Below are positions 1 to 10,090 of a stretch of 64,000 nt of DNA, piece after piece. Under the pieces are notes generated by a model. It made no database searches, was not told the origin of the DNA, and was given only the letters and a program-made list of their open reading frames with translations. The DNA lies in assembly GCA_000307935.1 (NCBI GenBank), contig AMWX01000012.1:1-64000 (forward strand), in the 5' to 3' direction. The translations under genes were made by a program, and so were the position numbers. Each line of letters opens with the position of its first letter. The stretch's first letter is position 1. The DNA is from SAR86 cluster bacterium SAR86E. GTDB lineage: Bacteria; Pseudomonadota; Gammaproteobacteria; Magnimaribacterales; D2472.

Positions 1-688
1 TTATTCTATACCTACTTGTAGGAATTACCTCAATCTTTTTAAAGTCTATAAATTTCTCGCAACTATCCATCATAATTTGCGCATGTTTTGCCAATAGCTC
101 TGGATTATTTTTGGCATCATAAAAGACCTCCGGATCTGACATGGCCTCAGACGGAAAGCACTCCTCGATAATTGCAATAAATGAAGGAGATGCTTTCTGC
201 AAAGGTCTTACAACTGTATTTTGAACATAAATAAAATTAGATTGGGTTTGAATGGCAATGTTTGTGTGATGATTGGTCCAGTGATCAAACCAGTCATATG
301 TAGACATTGATTCTGGCTTCTCTAAAAAAACAACTTGTGAAAACCCTTCTGATCTTGATCCCAAAGGACTTTTTTTGGAGCTGTCTAAAATGATTGATTC
401 GCTAACAACAAAGCCATGGATTTTATTTGTAATTTTTTTTAAATAGCTTTCAAGTGTATTGGCTAAAAAATAACTTTTTACTTTTATGAATATTATTGCA
501 TTTGGTGCGGGTGGATAGTTCGATTGTGCCAAATTATTTGCTGGCAAAACATCGGCATCAGCAATATTAATCTGTAAATCTGAAACTAACTCGCCAATAT
601 CTTTGCTGAGGTTCTTAAGAAGTAGTTCTTTAAAAGTTTCTAGACTATCATCATCTTTTTTCCAAAGCTGATAGGCTAGTTTTTCCAT
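1..688 (-). CDS. EthD-domain protein, partial (3' end cut by window edge)
   Basis: An open frame of 229 codons starts at an ATG directly after the TAG stop of the SDR gene and runs off position 1 without a stop. An AAGGG Shine-Dalgarno lies 5-6 bases before the ATG. Residues about 130-225 carry the EthD pattern seen in steroid-degradation clusters: a W-H-T-I-A-Q-T segment (WFDHWTNHHTNIAIQTQ), then EECFPSEAMSDPEVFYD, then the VIPTSRY end. EthD proteins are small ferredoxin-like-fold proteins of unclear catalytic role. Its place as last visible gene of the ring C/D operon suggests an accessory role there (inference). The first 120 residues look like a weakly similar second half. No in-frame stop was found. 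Confidence 0.75.
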   Translation of the reverse strand, partial: MEKLAYQLWKKDDDSLETFKELLLKNLSKDIGELVSDLQINIADADVLPANNLAQSNYPPAPNAIIFIKVKSYFLANTLESYLKKITNKIHGFVVSESIILDSSKKSPLGSRSEGFSQVVFLEKPESMSTYDWFDHWTNHHTNIAIQTQSNFIYVQNTVVRPLQKASPSFIAIIEECFPSEAMSDPEVFYDAKNNPELLAKHAQIMMDSCEKFIDFKKIEVIPTSRYRI

Positions 689-1471
689 CTATGCCCTTTG
701 AGATGATGCAGATATCACCTCACCAGTCATATATGAAGAGAGATCAGATGCCAGGAACAAAATAATGTTTGCTATTTCCCAAGGTTCAGCCCCTCTTCCA
801 AAAGCTTCTTTAGATTCTAATTCAGCTATCAATTCATCCGAACTAGTCTTTGACAGATGTGGATTCATGGCAAGACTTGGTGCAACTGCATTGATCCTAA
901 TTCCATGATTTACTGTTTCCAATGCAACGCATCTTGTTAAAGCCATTACTCCAGCCTTTGCAGCAGCATAATGAGATTGACCTGCTTGCGCTCTCCAACC
1001 CAATACGGACGCATTATTAACAATTACTCCTTGAGTTTCTTTAAGCACGGGAATAGCAGCTCTCATAATTTTCATGGCGCCGTTAAGGGTAACGTTCGTA
1101 ACAAGATCCCATGCTTCATTGCTCATATTTTCTAATAAAGATTCTCCGCCCAGCCCAGCATTATTGATTACACCATTTAAATTTGAGTAACAACTAAGCG
1201 CGTCTTTAAACATTGCTTCTATCTCTTCATCATTCGTAACATTGCAAAGACATCCATTGACTTCGCCCTTATTCATTAAACGCAAGCTATCTATTGCCTC
1301 ATCTAACCTGCCCTGATGAACATCAGAAATAAAAACATTAGCGCCTTCCTCAAGAAATCGCTTAGCGGTAGAAAAGCCAATTCCAGAGCCAGCTGCGGCA
1401 GTGATTAAGATATTTTGATCTTTAAAAAGATTTCTTCCCTCAGGATATTGAGGATTCATTAAATTATTCAT
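689..1471 (-). CDS. ipdF: IpdF-like short-chain dehydrogenase of steroid ring C/D degradation
   Basis: A 260-residue classical SDR. It has an N-terminal nucleotide-binding Gly-rich motif (TAAAGSGIG), NNAG, and the active-site block NNASVLGWRAQ followed by SHYAAAKAG with the catalytic Tyr and Lys. The block and the SSYMTGEVIS ending closely resemble mycobacterial IpdF, which oxidises a ring hydroxyl of the CoA-linked hydroindane intermediate (family knowledge). The start chosen is the ATG at 1471 because it forms an ATGA overlap with the stop of the upstream thiolase gene; a TTG at 1477 is possible. Neighbouring fadA6, echA20, ipdC and ipdAB support the specific call. Confidence 0.87.
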   Translation of the reverse strand: MNNLMNPQYPEGRNLFKDQNILITAAAGSGIGFSTAKRFLEEGANVFISDVHQGRLDEAIDSLRLMNKGEVNGCLCNVTNDEEIEAMFKDALSCYSNLNGVINNAGLGGESLLENMSNEAWDLVTNVTLNGAMKIMRAAIPVLKETQGVIVNNASVLGWRAQAGQSHYAAAKAGVMALTRCVALETVNHGIRINAVAPSLAMNPHLSKTSSDELIAELESKEAFGRGAEPWEIANIILFLASDLSSYMTGEVISASSQRA

Positions 1472-2622
1472 GAGCAATTCTCTAAAATCGTAACATTTGC
1501 CTGACCCCCACCCTCACACATTGTTTGAAGACCATATTTAATATTGTTTCTTTTCATATTATGAACCAAGGTAGTCATCAATCGTGCGCCGGTTGCTCCC
1601 AGTGGATGGCCAAGAGCAATTGCTCCTCCATTTATATTAATTTGATCCATTGGGTACTCCATTTCTTTCTGCCAAGCCATAGCAACAGATGCAAACGCTT
1701 CATTTATTTCAACCAAACCAATTTCATTTAATTGGATTCCTGACTTTTTAACTGCATATTCTGTTGCAGGCATAGGCGCGGTAAGCATCCAGATTGGATC
1801 ATCGGCTCTAACACTTATATGCGCTATTCTGGCTAAAGGAGAAAGGTTATGCTCTTTAAGAATTTTTTCTGAAACAATCAAAATAGCTGAAGATGCATCC
1901 GCATTCTGCGAAGAAATAGCGGCTGTAATATCATGACCATCAATCAGAGGATTTAAAGAGGCCATTTTTTCCAATGAAGTTTCTGCTCTGGGAGTCTCAT
2001 CAGTATTAAATCCTTCAACTGAAATAATTTCATCTTTAAATAAACCTTTCTCAATAGCGCACATGGCTTTTTGATGACTTTGGTATGCATAGTTTTCCAT
2101 CTCTAATCTGGATATATTCCATTTCTCTGCAATCATCTGCGCAGAATTAAACTGACTTACCTCTTTATTGCCATAGCGGTTGACCCAGCCTTTTGATCCA
2201 GAAAATGGATCGGCAAAACCAAGTGCCTGTCCTGCAATCATTGCATAAGATATAGGGATCAGGTTCATGTTTTGAACGCCTCCAGCGATAACTACATCAG
2301 ATGTACCAGACATAATCGCTTGAGCAGCAAAATGAACAGCTTGTTGGGATGAGCCGCATTGACGATCAACAGTTGTTCCTGGAACATGCTCAGGAAGTCC
2401 TGCCGCCAACCAACAAGTTCTTGCTATGTCACCAGCTTGAGGTCCAACTGTATCAACGCAACCGAAAATTACATCCTCAACTAATCCTGGATCTAAATCT
2501 ACTTGATCAAAGGTTGCAGAAAGAACTACAGCCCCTAAATCAGCAGGATGCATATTTGATAAAGTGCCTTTCTTCCTGCCTATTGGTGTTCTCAGTGCGC
2601 TAACTATGAATGCATCTTGCAT
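1468..2622 (-). CDS. fadA6: FadA6-like acetyl-CoA acyltransferase (thiolase)
   Basis: A 384-residue type II thiolase that cleaves 3-ketoacyl-CoA. The nucleophilic Cys lies in TVDRQCGSSQQA, the conserved His in EINEAFA and GGAIALGHPLGATGAR, and the second catalytic Cys in QTMCEGGGQANV near the C-terminus. These stretches closely follow Mycobacterium FadA6, the thiolase of HIP (steroid ring C/D) catabolism. Length is normal. The gene follows the acyl-CoA dehydrogenase pair by 11 bases and overlaps ipdF by 4 bases, so co-translation is likely. A general beta-oxidation thiolase is the alternative, but context and sequence favour FadA6. Confidence 0.87.
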   Translation of the reverse strand: MQDAFIVSALRTPIGRKKGTLSNMHPADLGAVVLSATFDQVDLDPGLVEDVIFGCVDTVGPQAGDIARTCWLAAGLPEHVPGTTVDRQCGSSQQAVHFAAQAIMSGTSDVVIAGGVQNMNLIPISYAMIAGQALGFADPFSGSKGWVNRYGNKEVSQFNSAQMIAEKWNISRLEMENYAYQSHQKAMCAIEKGLFKDEIISVEGFNTDETPRAETSLEKMASLNPLIDGHDITAAISSQNADASSAILIVSEKILKEHNLSPLARIAHISVRADDPIWMLTAPMPATEYAVKKSGIQLNEIGLVEINEAFASVAMAWQKEMEYPMDQININGGAIALGHPLGATGARLMTTLVHNMKRNNIKYGLQTMCEGGGQANVTILENCS

Positions 2623-2633
2623 ACCTTATCCCC

Positions 2634-3671
2634 CTAAAAAGTATATAAAACACCAAGCTCTTCACTAGTGGAAGACAGTGTCTTAAAAATTAACTCTAGT
2701 TGCTTGTCTTCATTACCCCAACAGGCCATCATCGACCAGGCTTTTCTCATATATATATGAAGATCCATCTCCCATGTATAGCCCATTGCTCCATGAGCCT
2801 GAATGCTGTTTTTACATGCAAGTTCAGCAGCTTGAGCACACATAAGTTTTGCGTGAGCACAATGTAAAGCAGATTTAGGGTTGTTTTCAGACAAAGAATA
2901 AGCTGCCCTATATACAGCAGGTTTTGCAAACTCAATTTTAACCGCCACATCAGCCAGCATATGTTTGACAGCCTGAAAGGAACCAATTGGCTTCCCAAAT
3001 TGAGTTCTATCTAAAACATAAATGGAGCTTAAATCTACCATTTTTTGAGCCAATCCAATTAACAAAGCAGCCGTCATTAACGAGCCTCTTGAAGAAACCG
3101 CAGAATTAAGCTCATCAAAATTTTTAGAAGTAGAAATAGCATCATTCATTGAGCTTACTTTGAAGAGCTCTCTAGAAGGATCATTAGAGGATATGATTTC
3201 GAAATCCATATCGTTTTTTGCAATGAACTTACATTCAGAATTATCAAGCAAAATAAGTCCAGCTGCATCGTTTAAAAACAGAGGATTCGGGGCTAAAGGA
3301 TGCGCAAGAGCAATGTATTGAGTGCCATCATTGAAATTGCTTTCAACAGCTTCAGTGACATTTTTAGGCAAAAAAGGAATTACATCGTTTACTAAAAAAA
3401 TTTGCTCTGCAACTGGTTCAGGCAGTCCCGCATAGCCCATTTCTTCGACCATCAAAGCTAATGTGACTTGATCCATGCCTAGGCCACCTTTTTTTTCAGG
3501 AAGATTTGAGCTCAAGACTCCTAACTCAATTAAATTTTTCCATCGTTCTAGATTAAAAGATTTATTTTTTTGCCAGCCATCTCTGATTGAAGCGGGAGCA
3601 CATTCTTCAGCTAAAAAAGATTTGATGGCATCCTTAAATTGGATTTGCTCTTCTGTAAAAATAAAGTTCAT
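2634..3671 (-). CDS. Acyl-CoA dehydrogenase, small/partner subunit type
   Basis: A 345-residue acyl-CoA dehydrogenase. The N-terminal helical domain (FTEEQIQFKDAIKSFL), a middle domain and a C-terminal domain with RTQFGKPIGSFQAVKHMLAD and QAHGAMGYTWEMDLHIYMRKA are visible. It lacks the GTNEIQ-type motif near the C-terminus that the neighbouring dehydrogenase keeps. This resembles the short subunits of the alpha2-beta2 dehydrogenases of bacterial steroid catabolism such as IpdE2/FadE33 (family knowledge). It starts 3 bases after the preceding dehydrogenase, which fits a heteromeric pair. The exact substrate cannot be read from the sequence. Confidence 0.82.
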   Translation of the reverse strand: MNFIFTEEQIQFKDAIKSFLAEECAPASIRDGWQKNKSFNLERWKNLIELGVLSSNLPEKKGGLGMDQVTLALMVEEMGYAGLPEPVAEQIFLVNDVIPFLPKNVTEAVESNFNDGTQYIALAHPLAPNPLFLNDAAGLILLDNSECKFIAKNDMDFEIISSNDPSRELFKVSSMNDAISTSKNFDELNSAVSSRGSLMTAALLIGLAQKMVDLSSIYVLDRTQFGKPIGSFQAVKHMLADVAVKIEFAKPAVYRAAYSLSENNPKSALHCAHAKLMCAQAAELACKNSIQAHGAMGYTWEMDLHIYMRKAWSMMACWGNEDKQLELIFKTLSSTSEELGVLYTF

Positions 3672-3674
3672 TTT

Positions 3675-4826
3675 TTACCTAGGAAGCCCCAATAATCTTT
3701 CAGCAATAATATTTTTTTGAATTTCATTGGTTCCAGCATAAATTGGCCCTGCATAAGAAAACATGAAGCCCTTTATCCATTTAGCCGCATCATTTTTAGA
3801 TTCTTGGGATAATTCTGCACTAGCTCCCAAGATTTTCAATGCTGTTTGATGCATCATATGATCAAGTTCAGACCAAAAAATCTTACCTAAACTTGATTCT
3901 GAGCCAATGGAGCCTCCAGCAAGCATTTTTGATGCAGTATGATAAATACTTAAGGCATATGACTCTGATTGGGACCAAGCCTCTACAACCTTAGCCTGAA
4001 TCATTGGAGAGCAATGGTCTTGGTTTGCAAGATAAAGTTCTAATAGTTTTGAAGCCGTTTGTTGAAAGCGTGCCGGGCTTCTTAGCATTAGACCTCTCTC
4101 AAATCCCGCTGTAGCCATAGCAATCTTCCAGCCCTCGCCATCACCACCAAGCAAATTTTCTACAGGAACTTTTACATCATCAAAATATATTTCTGCAAAA
4201 CCAGGCTCTCCATCTAATTGAGGTATGGGTCTGACAGTAATACCAGGTAAATTCAATGGGACTAATATAAAAGATAAACCTCTATGTCTTTCAGAATCTA
4301 AGTCTGTTCTAAATAGTCCAAAAGTCCAGTCAGCATATGCTGCTCTTGAAGACCAAGTTTTTTGACCATTAATTTTATAGTGATCATCTTCAAGCACTGC
4401 TGTTGTTCTAATAGCAGCCATATCACTTCCAGCACCTGGCTCTGACCAACCTTGAGCCCAGATGTGATCTCCAGTTGCCATAGCATTTAAAAATTTTGAT
4501 TTCTGCTCATGAGTACCAAATTCCATTAAGGTTGGTCCAAGCAAAAAGACTCCATTCTGATTTACTCTTGTTGGAGCTTCAGCACGATAATACTCCTCTT
4601 CAAAAATCAACCATTGAATTAGGTCTAGACCCCTTCCTCCATACTCCTTGGGCCAGGTAACCATTGACCAATTTCCTTGATTTAGTGTTTTTTCCCACTC
4701 TCTATGCTACTCAAAACCTTCTTTGGTATCTAATGATTTAAGTGGTGTCTTAGGAACATTACTCTCCAGCCAAGCGCGCACCTCATCTCTAAATACGTTT
4801 TGTTCATTTGTAAAATTAATTTTCAT
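3675..4826 (-). pseudogene. FadE30-like acyl-CoA dehydrogenase interrupted by an in-frame TAG
   Basis: The full frame is 384 codons from an ATG that overlaps the end of the echA20-like gene by 11 bases, the expected coupled start. Codon 40 (4707-4709) is TAG, between GFE and HREWEKTLNQGNWSMVTWP. Both sides read as acyl-CoA dehydrogenase: an N-terminal ...NVFRDEVRAWLESNVP segment before, and WPKEYGGRG, QGWSEPGAGSD, INGQKTWSS, MATAGFERGLMLRSP and YAGTNEIQKNIIAERLLGLP after. Without the stop the protein would be 383 residues, the usual size of FadE30, which dehydrogenates the HIP-CoA side chain. An internal ATG at 4664 would drop the N-terminal helices and is an unlikely natural start. The single C-to-T change (CAG to TAG) could be a real mutation or a sequence error. 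Confidence 0.8.
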
Positions 4827-5577
4827 CTTTAAAATCTGCGTCTCTTTTTTCAACGAATGCATCTCGAGCTTCTTGAGAATCCCTTGATTTATAAAGCTCT
4901 AGGGTAAAAGTTTGCTCTGACTTGTAATGCTCATCAACATTGCCATTCTCAATTTCATTCAATGCTTTTTTAGCTAAATTCATAGCTATAGGACTTTTGG
5001 AGGCTATGTCATTTGCAATAATAAGTGCTGCTTCACGCACAGAGTCTAGATCTGGATGCAAAGACTCAATTGAGCCATATTCATATGCTCTTTGAGCAGA
5101 AATAGGTTTTCCAGTAAACATCATTTTTCTAACTGCCTGAAGTGGGAACAGTCTGCTTAAATGCGCTCCACCGCCCAGCGCACCTCTATCAATTTCAGGC
5201 AACCCAAAATAAGAATCCTCGGTTGTTAAAACAATGTCAGACGCTCCAGCAAGCAAAATTCCTCCTCCAAGAATAAATCCATGACACGCTGATATTACAG
5301 GAACATTTGAAACATGGATTGCTCTCGCTGTTTTCCAACAACCATCATTAACATCTGTAATTTTTGTTGGATCCTCCTGCAACTCTTTGATGTCTGCGCC
5401 TGCACAAAAACCTTTACCCCTAGCTGATATCAAAATAACTCTAACATCGTTATTGTGAGCAAGATTATCAATGTTGGTTGCTAAATCTAGCCATTCAGTT
5501 GAAGTTAATGCATTAACGGGAGGGCAATCTAAAATTATTTCAGCAACATTATTACTTATGGAAGTTTCAACGCTCAT
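4816..5577 (-). CDS. echA20: EchA20-like crotonase-fold hydrolase (steroid ring D opening)
   Basis: A 253-residue crotonase-family protein. It shows the CoA-binding CAGADIKELQ loop, the oxyanion-hole GFILGGGILLAGASD segment and FGLPEIDRGALGGGAHLSRL, which is typical of EchA20 rather than ordinary enoyl-CoA hydratases. In the mycobacterial pathway EchA20 hydrolyses ring D of the bicyclic CoA thioester before IpdAB opens ring C (family knowledge). The ATG overlaps the ipdC stop as ATGA, and the 3' end overlaps the FadE30-like start, so the genes look translationally coupled. Confidence 0.82.
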   Translation of the reverse strand: MSVETSISNNVAEIILDCPPVNALTSTEWLDLATNIDNLAHNNDVRVILISARGKGFCAGADIKELQEDPTKITDVNDGCWKTARAIHVSNVPVISACHGFILGGGILLAGASDIVLTTEDSYFGLPEIDRGALGGGAHLSRLFPLQAVRKMMFTGKPISAQRAYEYGSIESLHPDLDSVREAALIIANDIASKSPIAMNLAKKALNEIENGNVDEHYKSEQTFTLELYKSRDSQEARDAFVEKRDADFKDEN

Positions 5578-6629
5578 GATTTCTCCTCAATCTTTTTAAA
5601 ATTTTTAGCAGCGATACAAAATTCTTCCATAATTTGATCTATCAACTCTTTACATGAAGGAAGATTTTTTATGATTCCTGCAACTTGACCAGATGGCATG
5701 GCGCCTTCATTAGGGGAACCTTCCACCATTGCCTTTTGAATAATTGCTGGGCTATTTGCAGACATAATTGATTGTGAAATAGTTAAATCGTCTCCTTTGA
5801 GCATTGCAAAGAAGGATTTAAGCAGGTCCCCAAATGATGCTTTAGTAATTTGCTTATATTTCCAAGCAGAAGTAACCGACATTAAAAATAATGAAATGGG
5901 GTTGGATCGATCTATTTTTTTTATATATTTATTGAAAATAAGCCTATGAGACAAACCATCAAATTTTTTTGTTATTTTGATTTCATCAACTTCTGCTGAA
6001 ATATATGCTTTCTTTGTTTTGCCTGGAACAGGGCTTTCTTGAGTCATCATAAAGCGTGTTCCCATTGCTATTCCACATGCACCCCATGCAAGAGATGCAG
6101 CTAGACCTGATCCATCTCGAAATCCACCTGCGGCGACTACTGGAATATCTACATGCTCTAAAACAGAACTAAGCAACAAAGTTGTGGGTGTTGATCCAGT
6201 ATGACCACCTCCCTCTGAGCCTTGTATAACAAGAGCATCAGCGCCTAACTGCTCTGCTTTTATTGCATGTTTAAGTGCGCCAACAGTCGGTATACAAATA
6301 ATCCCCTGCTCTTTGAAGGCTTTTATGTAGTCCGGCGTTGGGGATCTTGAATAACTAACTGCTTTAATTTTTTTATCTAAGATTGCTTGAACGATCTTAT
6401 CGGCTCCTGGTTGGAACATATGAAAATTTACGCCAAAGGGTTTGTTCGTCAAGCTCATTGTTTCATCTATCATTTCAATTGCTTCCTGAGGCCCTGCAGT
6501 AGCTAAAGCTAAGAATCCAAAAGCACCAGCATTTGAAGTTGCAGCAACTAGCTGAGGCATAGCCACCCAACCCATTGCTGTTTGAATAATTGGATAATCG
6601 CAACCTAAAATGTCAGTTAATTTATTAAT
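5574..6629 (-). CDS. ipdC: IpdC-like flavin reductase (nitronate monooxygenase family), ATT start
   Basis: A TIM-barrel protein of the nitronate monooxygenase/2-nitropropane dioxygenase family, about 351 residues. FMN-binding features include QGSEGGGHTG (about residues 136-145), PVVAAGGFRDG and AWGACGIAMGTRFMMT; ASGQVAG-like and IKNLPSCKELI near the end match IpdC. IpdC acts with IpdF to prepare the ring C/D intermediate for ring opening. The first ATG (6575) would cut off residues NKLTDILGCDYPIIQTA that align with the family N-terminus. Between the upstream TAG (6642-6644) and 6575 there is no ATG, GTG or TTG in frame. ATT at 6627-6629, 6 bases after an AGAAGAGA purine tract, is the best start. 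ipdC follows the hydratase gene by 12 bases. Confidence 0.85.
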   Translation of the reverse strand: MNKLTDILGCDYPIIQTAMGWVAMPQLVAATSNAGAFGFLALATAGPQEAIEMIDETMSLTNKPFGVNFHMFQPGADKIVQAILDKKIKAVSYSRSPTPDYIKAFKEQGIICIPTVGALKHAIKAEQLGADALVIQGSEGGGHTGSTPTTLLLSSVLEHVDIPVVAAGGFRDGSGLAASLAWGACGIAMGTRFMMTQESPVPGKTKKAYISAEVDEIKITKKFDGLSHRLIFNKYIKKIDRSNPISLFLMSVTSAWKYKQITKASFGDLLKSFFAMLKGDDLTISQSIMSANSPAIIQKAMVEGSPNEGAMPSGQVAGIIKNLPSCKELIDQIMEEFCIAAKNFKKIEEKS

Positions 6630-6641
6630 GATATTTCTCTT

Positions 6642-7553
6642 CTATTTTTTGTTCTTTTTTGTGGCAGTCTTTTTAGCTGCTGTTTTCTTTATGGGAGTCT
6701 TTTTGGTTTTAGTCCTCTGAGATTTAGCCATCTTCTTTGCATCAAAACCTGATAAAACATTACCTGTAGTTAAATCATTATGCGCATGAGAAAAATGATG
6801 CCATGCGAAAGCAGCTTCCATTCCATTGCGTTTACCTTGTAGATCTTCGACATGGTTAATAGCTTGTTTAGTTAACGTTAACCCCAGTCTTGGCATTGCA
6901 GATATTTTTTTGGCCATCTCCATAACAGTTGATTCAAGATTCTCTATAGGAACAACCTTATTAACCATGCCCATTTCATAAGCCCTTGATGAAGACATTC
7001 TCTCACCAAGAAATAAGAATTCTTTTGCGATTCTTGGATTTAACTCATATGGATGGGCAAAATATTCAACCCCTGGAATTCCCATACGTACAACAGGATC
7101 AGCAAAGAAAGCATCCTCAGAGGCAATAATAAGATCACAGACCCACGCCAACATACACCCGCCTGCAACACAAGCACCATGCACCATAGCAATGGTTGGT
7201 TTAGGCATATCTCTCCAGCGTCTACACATGTTCAAGTAAACTTCTTGCTCTCTGACATACCAAAACTCTCCACCAGGCTTATTTGTATGGTCGTACCACA
7301 TGGATTTTCGATCATACTCAACATCAACATCTCTTCCTGGTGTGCCAATATCATGACCTGCTGAAAAATGCTTGCCATTACCTTTTAGTACAATAACTTT
7401 AACCTCATCATCGTCTATTGCCCTTTTAAAAGCCTTATCTAGGTCATAAGTCATCTTGCCGTTTTGTGCATTGTTATATTCAGGCCTATTCATAGAAATG
7501 ATGGCAATTTCATCTTTCTTTTTGTATGTGATTGTGGGTTTACTTCTAGGCAT
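6642..7553 (-). CDS. Enoyl-CoA hydratase/isomerase with lysine-rich C-terminal tail
   Basis: A 303-residue crotonase-family protein: MNRPEYNNAQ, the FSAGHDIGTPGRD CoA/oxyanion loop, and HGACVAGGCMLAWVCDLIIASEDAFFADP. After about residue 270 comes a tail of KKT/KKA repeats (QRTKTKKTPIKKTAAKKTAT), unlike ordinary hydratases and similar in composition to histone H1-like tails. The ATG at 7553 is chosen because a longer TTG-type start would run back into ipdB and adds residues not seen in the family. Its place between ipdB and ipdC suggests it hydrates an enoyl-CoA of the side chain or ring remnant; the exact step is not known from sequence. Confidence 0.82.
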   Translation of the reverse strand: MPRSKPTITYKKKDEIAIISMNRPEYNNAQNGKMTYDLDKAFKRAIDDDEVKVIVLKGNGKHFSAGHDIGTPGRDVDVEYDRKSMWYDHTNKPGGEFWYVREQEVYLNMCRRWRDMPKPTIAMVHGACVAGGCMLAWVCDLIIASEDAFFADPVVRMGIPGVEYFAHPYELNPRIAKEFLFLGERMSSSRAYEMGMVNKVVPIENLESTVMEMAKKISAMPRLGLTLTKQAINHVEDLQGKRNGMEAAFAWHHFSHAHNDLTTGNVLSGFDAKKMAKSQRTKTKKTPIKKTAAKKTATKKNKK

Positions 7554-7557
7554 ATTG

Positions 7558-8313
7558 TTATTCTCCAAAAATTGAATTGCGAATACCTTGAGGATCAAGT
7601 ATTTCTCGGATACAAGCAAGCTCCTTATCCGTAGGCATTGGTGTGGCTTTATCTGAGTTTATAATTACATCAAAACCTGTATTTTCAATAACTTCATCAA
7701 CGCTTACACCAGGGTGTAAACTAAGGAGCTGAAAGCTATCATCTTTTCCATTGAAATCAAAAACACCCAGATTAGTGACCACAAGCTTAATCTCAAACTT
7801 CCCATTTGATAGGTCTTTGTTCTGGTAACCCATTCCGGAAACCATATCTACTGCGCTACTCACAAAGGTTTTTACAGAATGATTCGGGATGAAAATAGAA
7901 TTTTTATGATTGATAAAGTTTCCTGGAAAACCTCTTACACCGAGAAGCTGAACTTTTGGAGAATTATAATCTCCAATAGCGCTAATATTTGTTTGCCCAA
8001 ATGAATCTATTTGTGTTGGTGTGACCATGGCATGTCTTTTTCCTCCCCAAAGATTTTCAAACACACGGCTGTAACTCATGTAGCCCTCAACTAGATCATG
8101 AGAAATATCTCTTTTACCCATAGGTGCTGGTTGAGAGATTAAATAAGTCTCCCCGTCAGTCATCATCAGATCTGGATTATGGGTAAGCTTGGCTAGGCCT
8201 GCTGCAATTCTTGGTATCAAACCAATGCCTGTAGCAAGGATTTCTCCCTCACCCTCCCAAGCCTTAGAAGATGCGCTGATACAAATTTCCGATAATGTAA
8301 TAGATTCTGACAT
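7558..8313 (-). CDS. ipdB: IpdB-like CoA-transferase-family hydrolase, beta subunit
   Basis: A 251-residue class I CoA-transferase beta-type subunit. Key stretches are LMMTDGETYLI, ATGIG, RGFPGNFINHKNSIFIPNH, DMVSGMGY and LGVFDFNGKDD..LSLHPGV, all matching mycobacterial IpdB. IpdAB does not transfer CoA; it opens the last steroid ring (ring C) of COCHEA-CoA by hydrolysis (family knowledge). It starts 2 bases after ipdA, as expected for a two-subunit enzyme. Length is normal. Confidence 0.88.
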   Translation of the reverse strand: MSESITLSEICISASSKAWEGEGEILATGIGLIPRIAAGLAKLTHNPDLMMTDGETYLISQPAPMGKRDISHDLVEGYMSYSRVFENLWGGKRHAMVTPTQIDSFGQTNISAIGDYNSPKVQLLGVRGFPGNFINHKNSIFIPNHSVKTFVSSAVDMVSGMGYQNKDLSNGKFEIKLVVTNLGVFDFNGKDDSFQLLSLHPGVSVDEVIENTGFDVIINSDKATPMPTDKELACIREILDPQGIRNSIFGE

Positions 8314-8315
8314 TT

Positions 8316-9185
8316 TTAAAATTGCGGTAAAGGAATTTTTAGAATTGCGTCGGAGCCCCCAACAGCGTCAAGATAATCTTGATGAGTCCTGTTCAAATAC
8401 TTAGTACTGTATTCATCAAAAGATTTTGCTGCTTCTGAGTACTCTTTTAAATGTTTAATATCAAAACCATAGTTTGGAGCGCAAGATGTTGGATGAGCGC
8501 CACAAGGTGCATGCAAGACCCCCGTCACTAAACTTCTTTCGAACCGATTAAATATTGCGCCGTCTTTGCCACCTAAATCTTGTGTGGATACAACCTCTTC
8601 TGAGGATACAAAAGTTTTGCTAGCAGCTCTTGCAAAAAGTTCATCAAAAAACGGGTCGGGCCCAATGATTTGAGTATTACCTTTTTCATCAGATTTATTG
8701 ACATGAATTAATGCAACATCAAGTTTGAGTGCCGGCATTGCAACAAGTTTTTCAGCATCGCTGTATGGAGAGGTAACATATTCTAATTCAGAATTATGGG
8801 TTAAAACATCTGTGCCTAAGCCAACCCGAGTTGGCAAAAAAGGCAAGTTCATTGCAGCTGCTCGCAATCCCCATTGCACCATTCCCTCATCAAGCTCCAT
8901 GACTTCAATTTCATTTTTTTGACGCGCTTGACGAAAGTGAGATTCCAGCGGAATCATATCGAGTGAAACAAAACCAAAAATTAATTTTTTAACTTTTTTA
9001 TGAGCGCACAATAAGCCAACATCAGGACCCCCATAACTAACGACAGTTAAATCCTTAATATCTGATTGGCATATCTCTCTGATTAAAGACATTGGTTTTC
9101 TGCGAGCACCCCAACCGCCAACTCCGATGGTCATGCCATCAGACAGTTGATCAATAACATCTTTATATGAAATTATTTTATCCAT
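8316..9185 (-). CDS. ipdA: IpdA-like CoA-transferase-family hydrolase, alpha subunit
   Basis: A 289-residue alpha subunit. The N-terminal DGMTIGVGGWGARRKPM, YGGPDVGLLCAHKKVKKL, GFVSLD, the ELDEGMVQWGLRAA segment (about residues 97-110) holding conserved acidic residues, and LPFLPTRVGLGTDV all follow IpdA. Together with IpdB it hydrolyses ring C of the CoA thioester. Ordinary glutaconate or 3-oxoacid CoA-transferases are less similar and lack GWGARRKPM. Gaps of 2 bases on both sides place it firmly in the operon. Confidence 0.88.
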   Translation of the reverse strand: MDKIISYKDVIDQLSDGMTIGVGGWGARRKPMSLIREICQSDIKDLTVVSYGGPDVGLLCAHKKVKKLIFGFVSLDMIPLESHFRQARQKNEIEVMELDEGMVQWGLRAAAMNLPFLPTRVGLGTDVLTHNSELEYVTSPYSDAEKLVAMPALKLDVALIHVNKSDEKGNTQIIGPDPFFDELFARAASKTFVSSEEVVSTQDLGGKDGAIFNRFERSLVTGVLHAPCGAHPTSCAPNYGFDIKHLKEYSEAAKSFDEYSTKYLNRTHQDYLDAVGGSDAILKIPLPQF

Positions 9186-9187
9186 TT

Positions 9188-10090
9188 CTAGCTTTCTGGT
9201 GGTGAAAAAGCATGGCCCCAGAAACTAGGAATCTTACTTTTTTGCATCTCAAAATTATCCCAGTCAACCTGCCATCCATCATAACCAAATTCTAAATCAA
9301 AACCTGAGGGAGTCTGCATATAAAATGAAACCATCATATCGTTAGAATGCCTGCCCAGCGAAGATGAAATATGAACATTGTTCTGCATGGCTCTATCAAG
9401 ACCATGACCAACTTCGTCGATATTATTAACTTCAACCATAGTGTGTATCAGTCCTGACGGTGGTATTGGAGATTCATATAAAGCAACTGTGTGATGTCTA
9501 GGGTTATCGCAATGCATAAAATTTAATTTTACTTCAGGGGCATCTGGAGCTGGCCCCATTGGAAAGTTCATATAATCAGAATCTCCAAAACCTAAAATAT
9601 CAATATAAAATCTATGCGCAAGCTCTAGATTTGGTGCGGCAAAAACAACATGACCAAAGCCCAAGCCCTTTGTAATGAAACCTTTAATATCTTGCGTTGA
9701 TGCAAACGGTTCAGACGCATCTTTGCTCCCGTAGGACAGTTCAAGTCTATTACCTGCAGGATCATGAAGACCAATGCATTCCTCAACACATCGTAATTTT
9801 GCTATTTCATGACCTAGATCCTCATAATCCACCTTTGCTTTATCAAGTTCGCTTTTAGCATTATCAAAAGCAGCTTTATCTGATAATGAAAATCCTGCTG
9901 CAAGATACTTTTTTGAACTACCAGTTTTAATATGAAATCTGAAGGATTTTTCATCCATCCGAAGAAAAAGATTTTGTTCGTCGCTAAGAGAATCATTTTT
10001 CATTAAACCAACCACATCTTTTGCGTAATCAGCCCATTCCTGAAGGTCGGTTGTTTCTATAAGCAGATAACTTAAAGATTGTATTTTCAT
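9188..10090 (-). CDS. HsaC-like type I extradiol ring-cleavage dioxygenase
   Basis: A 300-residue two-domain vicinal-oxygen-chelate dioxygenase. The likely Fe(II) ligands are His147 (GFGHVVF), His216 (LIHTMVEV) and Glu267 (GFDLEFGYDG); NPRHHT at 197-201 and LGRHSNDMM supply active-site His residues. It resembles HsaC, which meta-cleaves the aromatised A ring of 3,4-DHSA, and the related dihydroxybiphenyl dioxygenases. It is first in the operon; the start ATG has a strong GAGGGAG ribosome site 4 bases before it (10095-10101). An A/B-ring enzyme heading a C/D-ring operon supports full steroid degradation, but the true substrate is not proven. Confidence 0.84.
   Translation of the reverse strand: MKIQSLSYLLIETTDLQEWADYAKDVVGLMKNDSLSDEQNLFLRMDEKSFRFHIKTGSSKKYLAAGFSLSDKAAFDNAKSELDKAKVDYEDLGHEIAKLRCVEECIGLHDPAGNRLELSYGSKDASEPFASTQDIKGFITKGLGFGHVVFAAPNLELAHRFYIDILGFGDSDYMNFPMGPAPDAPEVKLNFMHCDNPRHHTVALYESPIPPSGLIHTMVEVNNIDEVGHGLDRAMQNNVHISSSLGRHSNDMMVSFYMQTPSGFDLEFGYDGWQVDWDNFEMQKSKIPSFWGHAFSPPES

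Follow-up and report, generated by a model that had tools for sequence, protein, structure and literature searches.

The first 64 kb of contig AMWX01000012.1 (here C12) of SAR86 cluster bacterium SAR86E, which was analysed as a whole and is referred to as the window (64,000 nucleotides), very probably carries an operon for degradation of the steroid C/D rings (HIP). The genome comprises 1.40 Mb in 13 contigs and is estimated to be 87.8% complete. Eleven collinear open reading frames (ORFs) on the minus strand extend from window position 10090 down to 2. The ORF listing for positions 2-10090 bears out that the genes overlap or lie within a few bases of each other, as the initial annotation had stated. 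The claim of at least ten collinear HIP-pathway genes also stands, as IpdA and IpdB match known IpdAB and the order of nine of the genes is that of the tes/scd cluster of Comamonas testosteroni. The start of the contig cuts the EthD gene, and the operon with it. The block makes up the 5' half of a co-directional locus of 24 genes for aerobic 9,10-seco steroid catabolism that is probably a single operon. Gene sequences, order and conservation are observed directly, whereas the enzyme activities are deduced from homology and gene order. Steroid catabolism in SAR86 has already been published (2016, 2024) and this operon is known in outline. The parts that look unreported, in a search that left most subscription literature outside, are a probable, conserved AUU/AUC start codon of ipdC and a KshA divided between two proteins. 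The genes of the block and their predicted identities are:

9188-10090, minus strand: hsaC/tesB-like extradiol dioxygenase at the head of the operon (best PDB match 2zi8, E 2.7e-56)
8316-9185, minus strand: ipdA (scdL1), COCHEA-CoA hydrolase alpha subunit (PDB 6co6_A, E 1.1e-78)
7558-8313, minus strand: ipdB (scdL2), beta subunit of the same enzyme (PDB 6co6_B, E 2e-57)
6642-7553, minus strand: scdN-like crotonase whose C-terminal tail is Lys-rich (NCBIfam PRK08290, 446 bits, cut-off 280; ScdN position)
5574-6629, minus strand: ipdC (scdK), NMO/FabK-like flavoprotein (Pfam NMO; inferred start ATT at 6629-6627)
4816-5577, minus strand: echA20 (scdY), ring-D hydrolase (NCBIfam PRK07938, 304.5 bits, cut-off 260; ScdY position)
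3675-4826, minus strand: acyl-CoA dehydrogenase in the FadE31/ORF21 position, interrupted by a TAG at 4709-4707
2634-3671, minus strand: acyl-CoA dehydrogenase in the FadE32/ORF22 position (best NCBIfam family IpdE2, 116 bits, cut-off 450)
1468-2622, minus strand: fadA6 (scdF) thiolase (NCBIfam PRK07801, 643 bits, cut-off 591)
689-1477, minus strand: ipdF (scdG), short-chain dehydrogenase/reductase (SDR; NCBIfam PRK07831, 374.7 bits, cut-off 336)
2-688, minus strand: EthD-domain protein, cut by the contig start (Pfam EthD; alpha+beta barrel model, pLDDT 87)

The 6co6 chains are the best PDB matches of IpdA and IpdB, and other kinds of CoA-transferase trail the solved IpdAB (3.6e-27 for IpdA, 9.8e-17 for IpdB). 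IpdA retains, in the motif ELDEGMVQ, the Glu that is Ala in PDB entry 6coj. Thus, both marks of the IpdAB hydrolase type, the 6co6 match and the Glu within DEGM, are present. IpdC, EchA20, IpdF and FadA6 are all encoded and collinear, as in HIP clusters, and the thiolase, the SDR and both crotonases score above the NCBIfam cut-offs of their best families. FadA6 is 60-64% identical to the thiolase in the same place of five other clusters, and for IpdF an SDR with 53-57% identity occurs in five of the seven other clusters compared. In proteobacterial clusters the matching SDR follows the ScdC1/C2 pair, which is the place of scdG/ipdF. Assignment of this gene as ScdE was rejected, given 53-57% identity to the SDR in or near the scdG/ipdF place in those five clusters versus 26-31% to other SDRs. 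Two loci (L048 and L024) have the weaker kind of SDR alone in the stretch compared. The EthD-domain protein is conserved in the SAR86 operon, and comparison of its model with alpha+beta barrel enzymes returned weak matches (TM about 0.4-0.5) that point to no function.

Most gene labels of the initial annotation hold, the exception being EchA20. The order in the table of PMC8399759, read from consecutive locus tags of C. testosteroni, is TesB-ScdL1-ScdL2-ScdN-ScdK/IpdC-ScdY/EchA20-ORF21-ORF22-ScdF. ScdN comes first of the two crotonases and ScdY second, so the EchA20 label belongs to 4816-5577 and the gene at 6642-7553 is ScdN-like; on this order the crotonase beside ipdB was rejected as EchA20. 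The Lys-rich, low-complexity tail of the ScdN-like protein (window 6642-6720) occurs in the SAR86 sequences examined and is absent from those of Vibrio and Novosphingobium. The same tail renders the leader of ipdC rich in A (66%).

The block is widely conserved. Searching named genomes with IpdA yielded 35 loci, 23 of them in SAR86 (21 named as SAR86, plus L018 and L020, assigned by similarity), the best being 99% identical. All 11 genes occur in the same order at 19 of the 23; at the remaining four (L005, L007, L016, L022) a contig or locus end truncates the block. At two of the 19, one gene lies in two overlapping pieces, as after a frameshift: ipdF in L011 (L011:17710-18496) and the first acyl-CoA dehydrogenase in L012 (L012:14357-15506). 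IpdC was detected at E <= 1e-60 in 35 of 203 genomes of the order, comprising 24 of the 26 listed genomes of the SAR86E genus (g1), seven of g6, two of g10 and one each of g18 and g20; the last two genera belong to another family than g1. The initial annotation had proposed a phylogeny to detect transfer of the block. In a tree of IpdA plus IpdB from 35 loci, the 24 SAR86 loci form one clade (support 1.0), with a Vibrio alfacsensis plasmid adjoining. Because the SAR86 sequences form a single clade, no recent transfer of the locus need be invoked. An ancient transfer to the SAR86 ancestor is compatible with the tree, and a single origin within SAR86 followed by losses would fit the distribution.

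Genes for the A/B rings, which the initial annotation suggested looking for elsewhere, are encoded in the same genome: KstD, HsaA, FadD3, HsaD and a split KshA were identified. KstD is at C1:201005 (PDB 7p18, E 4.4e-138) and HsaA at C12:125677 (PDB 2rfq, a 3-HSA hydroxylase, E 3.4e-79). Contig C5 holds hsaG, hsaF and fadD3 above the NCBIfam cut-off (FadD3 as HIP-CoA ligase, NF005801, 677 bits, cut-off 657) and hsaD and hsaE below it, along with an LLM-type oxidoreductase, the split kshA and two Lrp/AsnC-type regulators. Thus, KstD, HsaA, HsaC, HsaD and HsaEFG are all present. At a closely related locus (L002, IpdA 99% identical), the EthD gene is followed by an SDR and a P450, which are also the genes at the right end of C5, so that C5 and C12 most likely adjoin. 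Another genome (G072) has a single minus-strand run of 24 ORFs, from hsaC to fadD3 plus a 2-hydroxyacid dehydrogenase-like gene; the gaps between them, which depend on the ORF starts chosen, are -50 to 86 bases. The LLM-type (F420/luciferase-like) oxidoreductase gene is at C5:19424-20311, between hsaF and kshA. The P450 is at C5:23849-25198, and its best PDB matches are an unnamed P450, CYP120 and CYP51.

We predict a route in which the step chemistry, taken from parts of PMC5380842, is applied via homology and gene order. HsaC would cleave ring A and HsaD would act on the product. FadD3 would activate HIP, after which the side chain would be shortened. IpdF and IpdC would turn 5-OH-HIC-CoA into HIEC-CoA, EchA20 would hydrolyse ring D and IpdAB ring C, and FadA6, together with both FadEs, would finish the chain.

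Several observations weigh against this assignment of the block. The dioxygenase at 9188-10090 scores 276.8 bits with the NCBIfam BphC model (cut-off 366) and 253.7 with the HsaC model (cut-off 450), and its best PDB match, 2zi8, is titled BphC, although we take that entry to be HsaC. HsaC, HsaD, HsaE, HsaA and KstD all fall under the NCBIfam equivalog cut-offs, as do both FadEs. The initial annotation's KshAB and HsaAB are recovered only in part: KshA (split) and HsaA were found, a KshB-like reductase was not found in the genome (with one query, run without a positive control), and HsaB has only a weak, generic candidate (46 bits, cut-off 230) that scores better as RutF, in a family also matched in nine of 14 control genomes. 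The acyl-CoA dehydrogenase pair for the HIP side chain, ScdC1 and ScdC2, was not identified by one query from the ScdC2 position, ScdC1 not being searched; the query had seven matches in the genome (29-40%), none clearly orthologous and the best being the window's own FadE31. The in-frame TAG in the first acyl-CoA dehydrogenase, if real, would inactivate one step in this cell.

The dioxygenase and FadE scores are what could be expected if the block served generic beta-oxidation or aromatic catabolism. We find that barely credible, as IpdA and IpdB match IpdAB best by a wide margin, the order is that of known HIP clusters, and KstD, HsaA and FadD3 are encoded in the same genome. We rate the sequence evidence against generic catabolism as strong. 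The initial annotation had named placement with generic families, together with absence of A/B-ring genes, as the outcome that would count against it; this was not found, because the proteins place with the Ipd families and A/B-ring genes lie in the same genome. It is also very improbable that the cell is limited to taking up HIP released by other organisms. FadD3 and most C/D-ring genes are present, and neither KshB nor a clear HsaB was located, but hsaDEGF, both parts of kshA, hsaA and kstD are present and hsaC heads the same operon. Somewhat more weight, although still an unlikely reading, can be given to decay of the locus in this genome. The ORF at 3675-4664 represents only the 3' portion of a gene that starts at 4826 and contains the in-frame TAG at 4709-4707. 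Of 22 relatives, 21 encode Gln at that position and the last encodes Leu, so the stop is private to this genome. Against decay, the ten remaining ORFs show no interruption over the length available, and the stop is absent from L002. Assemblies of this kind also contain single-base or frameshift errors, and L011 and L012 show apparent frameshifts in other block genes. Either an error of sequencing or amplification or a recent loss could account for the TAG. The HIP operon supports steroid-ring catabolism in one long co-directional locus of an abundant, streamlined ocean lineage.

We consider it very likely, from comparison of sequences, that translation of ipdC initiates at AUU or AUC:

6627-6629, minus strand: inferred AUU start codon of ipdC, with the Shine-Dalgarno (SD)-like AGAAGAGA 6 nt upstream

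No canonical start occurs in the ipdC frame of the window before the ATG of MGWVA at 6575. Even so, the frame stays open as far back as the scdN stop, and the product matches its family upstream of that ATG. We compared 24 g1 genomes, all distinct, numbering codons so that the internal ATG is codon 4. None has a suitably SD-spaced ATG, GTG or TTG. Codon -14 encodes Ile in all 24 (ATT in 21, ATC in three). Variation at codons -19 to -15 is mostly non-synonymous and includes stops, and from -14 onward it is mostly synonymous: -13 is Asn and -11 is TTA throughout, and Thr at -10 is encoded by four codons across the 24, although codons -12, -9, -8, -4 and -1 also change residue. The SD-like match is better at the ATT/ATC than at the internal ATG in every genome (mean -4.1 vs +2.2 kcal/mol), and structure is weaker there, again in all 24 (mean -4.1 vs -19.3). 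Codon -15 is also Ile in 14 of the 24, including the window, so the first of the two Ile codons could be the start in these genomes; in the window, the ATC just before the ATT (6632-6630) is a possible alternative start. In L011 and L065 (one sequence), a TAG directly precedes ATT-ATT. Weighing against a non-canonical start, nine genomes have an ATG at -8 (six codons past the ATT) and three a TTG at -7 (seven past); both positions are far from the SD-like site.

Initiation at the internal ATG (6575), with the upstream similarity incidental, would agree with its being the first ATG, GTG or TTG of the frame in the window. We regard it as quite improbable: the upstream stretch LGCxYP(I/V)IQTA is conserved with synonymous change, the internal ATG lacks an SD-like match and lies in stronger structure in all 24 genomes, and in other genera a usable GTG (g6, g10) or ATG (g18, g20) lies upstream of it. 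Readthrough of the scdN stop to give a ScdN-IpdC fusion is less probable still. That stop is in the ipdC frame in the window and in the listed g1 loci, but it is TAG in some and TAA in others, is doubled in L019 and L080, and is joined by an extra in-frame TAG in L011 and L065, and the linker is hypervariable. On the favoured reading, ipdC would be initiated at AUU (AUC in three of the 24 genomes), 12 nt after the scdN stop, with help from the A-rich, weakly structured leader.

A genome-wide habit of AUU initiation was not supported by comparison with G079, in which 73 of 88 ORFs were matched and nine aligned upstream of the first canonical start in both genomes. By eye ipdC alone is clear (six of seven residues identical ahead of a TTG in G079). 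Of the other eight, four contain stops and four cover 5-11 residues (2/8, 7/8, 5/11 and 5/5 identical), so that two well-conserved short stretches remain. G072 is too close for such a comparison to discriminate. As a positive control infC was ambiguous, as its frame opens GTC ATC GCT TTG; for the same reason, the start of the SAR86E infC (L136, C12:166382-166873) may also be non-canonical. If the AUU/AUC start is true, ipdC is a rare natural case of long-kept non-canonical initiation, and gene callers restricted to ATG, GTG and TTG miss the first 18 residues of IpdC, as did the ORF listing for this window, giving a protein of 333 instead of 351 aa.

The KshA of this locus is distributed over two ORFs:

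L050:18047-19345, on contig C5 of SAR86E: split kshA (Rieske ORF and catalytic ORF)

The 281-aa catalytic ORF aligns to residues 25-66 and 120-353 of KshA (4qdc), skipping the cluster-binding part, and the 145-aa ORF that precedes it aligns to residues 24-142. In Pfam searches, KshA_C is found only on the former and Rieske only on the latter; the two domains of a single-polypeptide KshA are thus on separate ORFs. A fused KshA-type paralogue with both Rieske and KshA_C is encoded at C1:219858-220853 (L053:9858-10853). Catalytic ORFs of the split type were identified in 28 of 203 genomes of the order (29 passed the KshA threshold, of which G066 did so solely via a fused paralogue and was excluded) and are kept in five SAR86 genera. 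The Rieske ORF adjoins the catalytic ORF at 28 of 29 loci, the remaining locus being cut by its contig. The 2His-1Asp iron motif is retained at 29 of 29 loci and the CxH/CxxH Rieske motif at 27, the exceptions being L118 (cut) and L123. Among plasmid records, 37 have a relative; identity ranges from 27 to 35% among the 20 matches listed. Where the alignment begins at the N-terminus, the number of codons covered exceeds that of query residues (in H31, 323 codons for 273 residues), as expected of fused enzymes. A class-wide draw of 369 genomes returned only SAR86E itself and one genome with fused KshA-type proteins.

These results make a working two-protein KshA fairly likely. The 9-alpha-hydroxylase oxygenase would consist of two proteins, a Rieske carrier of 145 aa and a catalytic subunit of 281 aa, predicted to assemble, probably with the Rieske cluster facing the non-heme iron as between neighbours of the ordinary trimer. 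In ordinary KshA trimers, according to parts of PMC4064121, the Rieske cluster of one subunit passes its electrons on to the iron of the adjacent one; because electrons already cross between subunits, a heteromer could work alike. A point against this is the weak alignment (15.9 bits) of the first barrel piece of the catalytic ORF (4qdc 25-66). We rejected a frameshift as the origin of the split, since the catalytic ORF has its own first barrel strands, both spacing and frame vary between loci, and fused KshA-type proteins occur at L122, L137, L138 and C1:219858. The split enzyme would offer a two-part Rieske oxygenase for the study of electron transfer.

A joint proposal, which we hold to be possible but doubtful, is that the conserved AUU acts as an IF3-sensitive brake on IpdC, working against the strong A-rich leader and coupling to the preceding gene, and that KshA is a heteromer in which a free Rieske carrier supplies a catalytic subunit that no longer has a cluster of its own. 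If the brake were true, flux into the CoA-trapping part of ring degradation would track ribosome capacity. Loss of ipdC traps CoA (PMC5380842, in part), and a lower level of IpdC would therefore be costly. It is equally possible that the AUU, given its strong context, is neutral, and any regulatory role is one that we infer.

A steroid pathway was reported in three SAR86 drafts, and SAR86 is among the listed steroid degraders, in the portion of PMC4810484 considered. The corresponding portion of PMC11582366 gives A/B-ring genes in several genomes of the Suzuki family and none detected in other families, in contrast to which two genomes of a second family (f3 in the grouping used here) have ipdC and the split kshA. 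Neither the operon nor the start of ipdC nor the division of KshA is described in these portions of the two papers. From hsaC to fadA6, the window has the nine-gene order of the C. testosteroni tes/scd cluster (table of PMC8399759). Lacking from the SAR86 run are ScdC1, ScdC2, ScdD and ORF33, and there is no clear ScdE. Downstream of ipdF come EthD, a second SDR and a P450, and hsaDEGF, the split kshA and fadD3 lie further on the same strand. Equivalents of FadD3, IpdF, IpdC, EchA20, IpdAB, FadA6 and FadE31/32 of the actinobacterial KstR2 regulon and HIP pathway (PMC5380842, in part) are encoded in SAR86, but the gene order differs and the SAR86 locus has two Lrp/AsnC-type regulators. NdmCDE, as partly described in PMC4408171, likewise has Rieske and non-heme-iron parts on separate polypeptides, but its Rieske domain is fused to a reductase and its substrate is another, whereas the SAR86 Rieske ORF encodes a free 145-aa protein and the enzyme is KshA. 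The Micromonas chlorophyllide a oxygenase (PMC9615114, in part) also has two chains and differs in substrate. The V. alfacsensis plasmid (NZ_CP140104, L048) has the SAR86 order from hsaC to the thiolase, with IpdA 59% identical; the annotation starts its ipdC at an ATG, an amidase and an SDR of another kind lie downstream, and an HsaA-like oxygenase and a reductase are nearby. Escherichia coli infC and pcnB start at AUU. SAR86 ipdC would share this initiation codon, but it is a catabolic gene, and its probable start is AUU or AUC in all 24 genomes compared within a single SAR86 genus.

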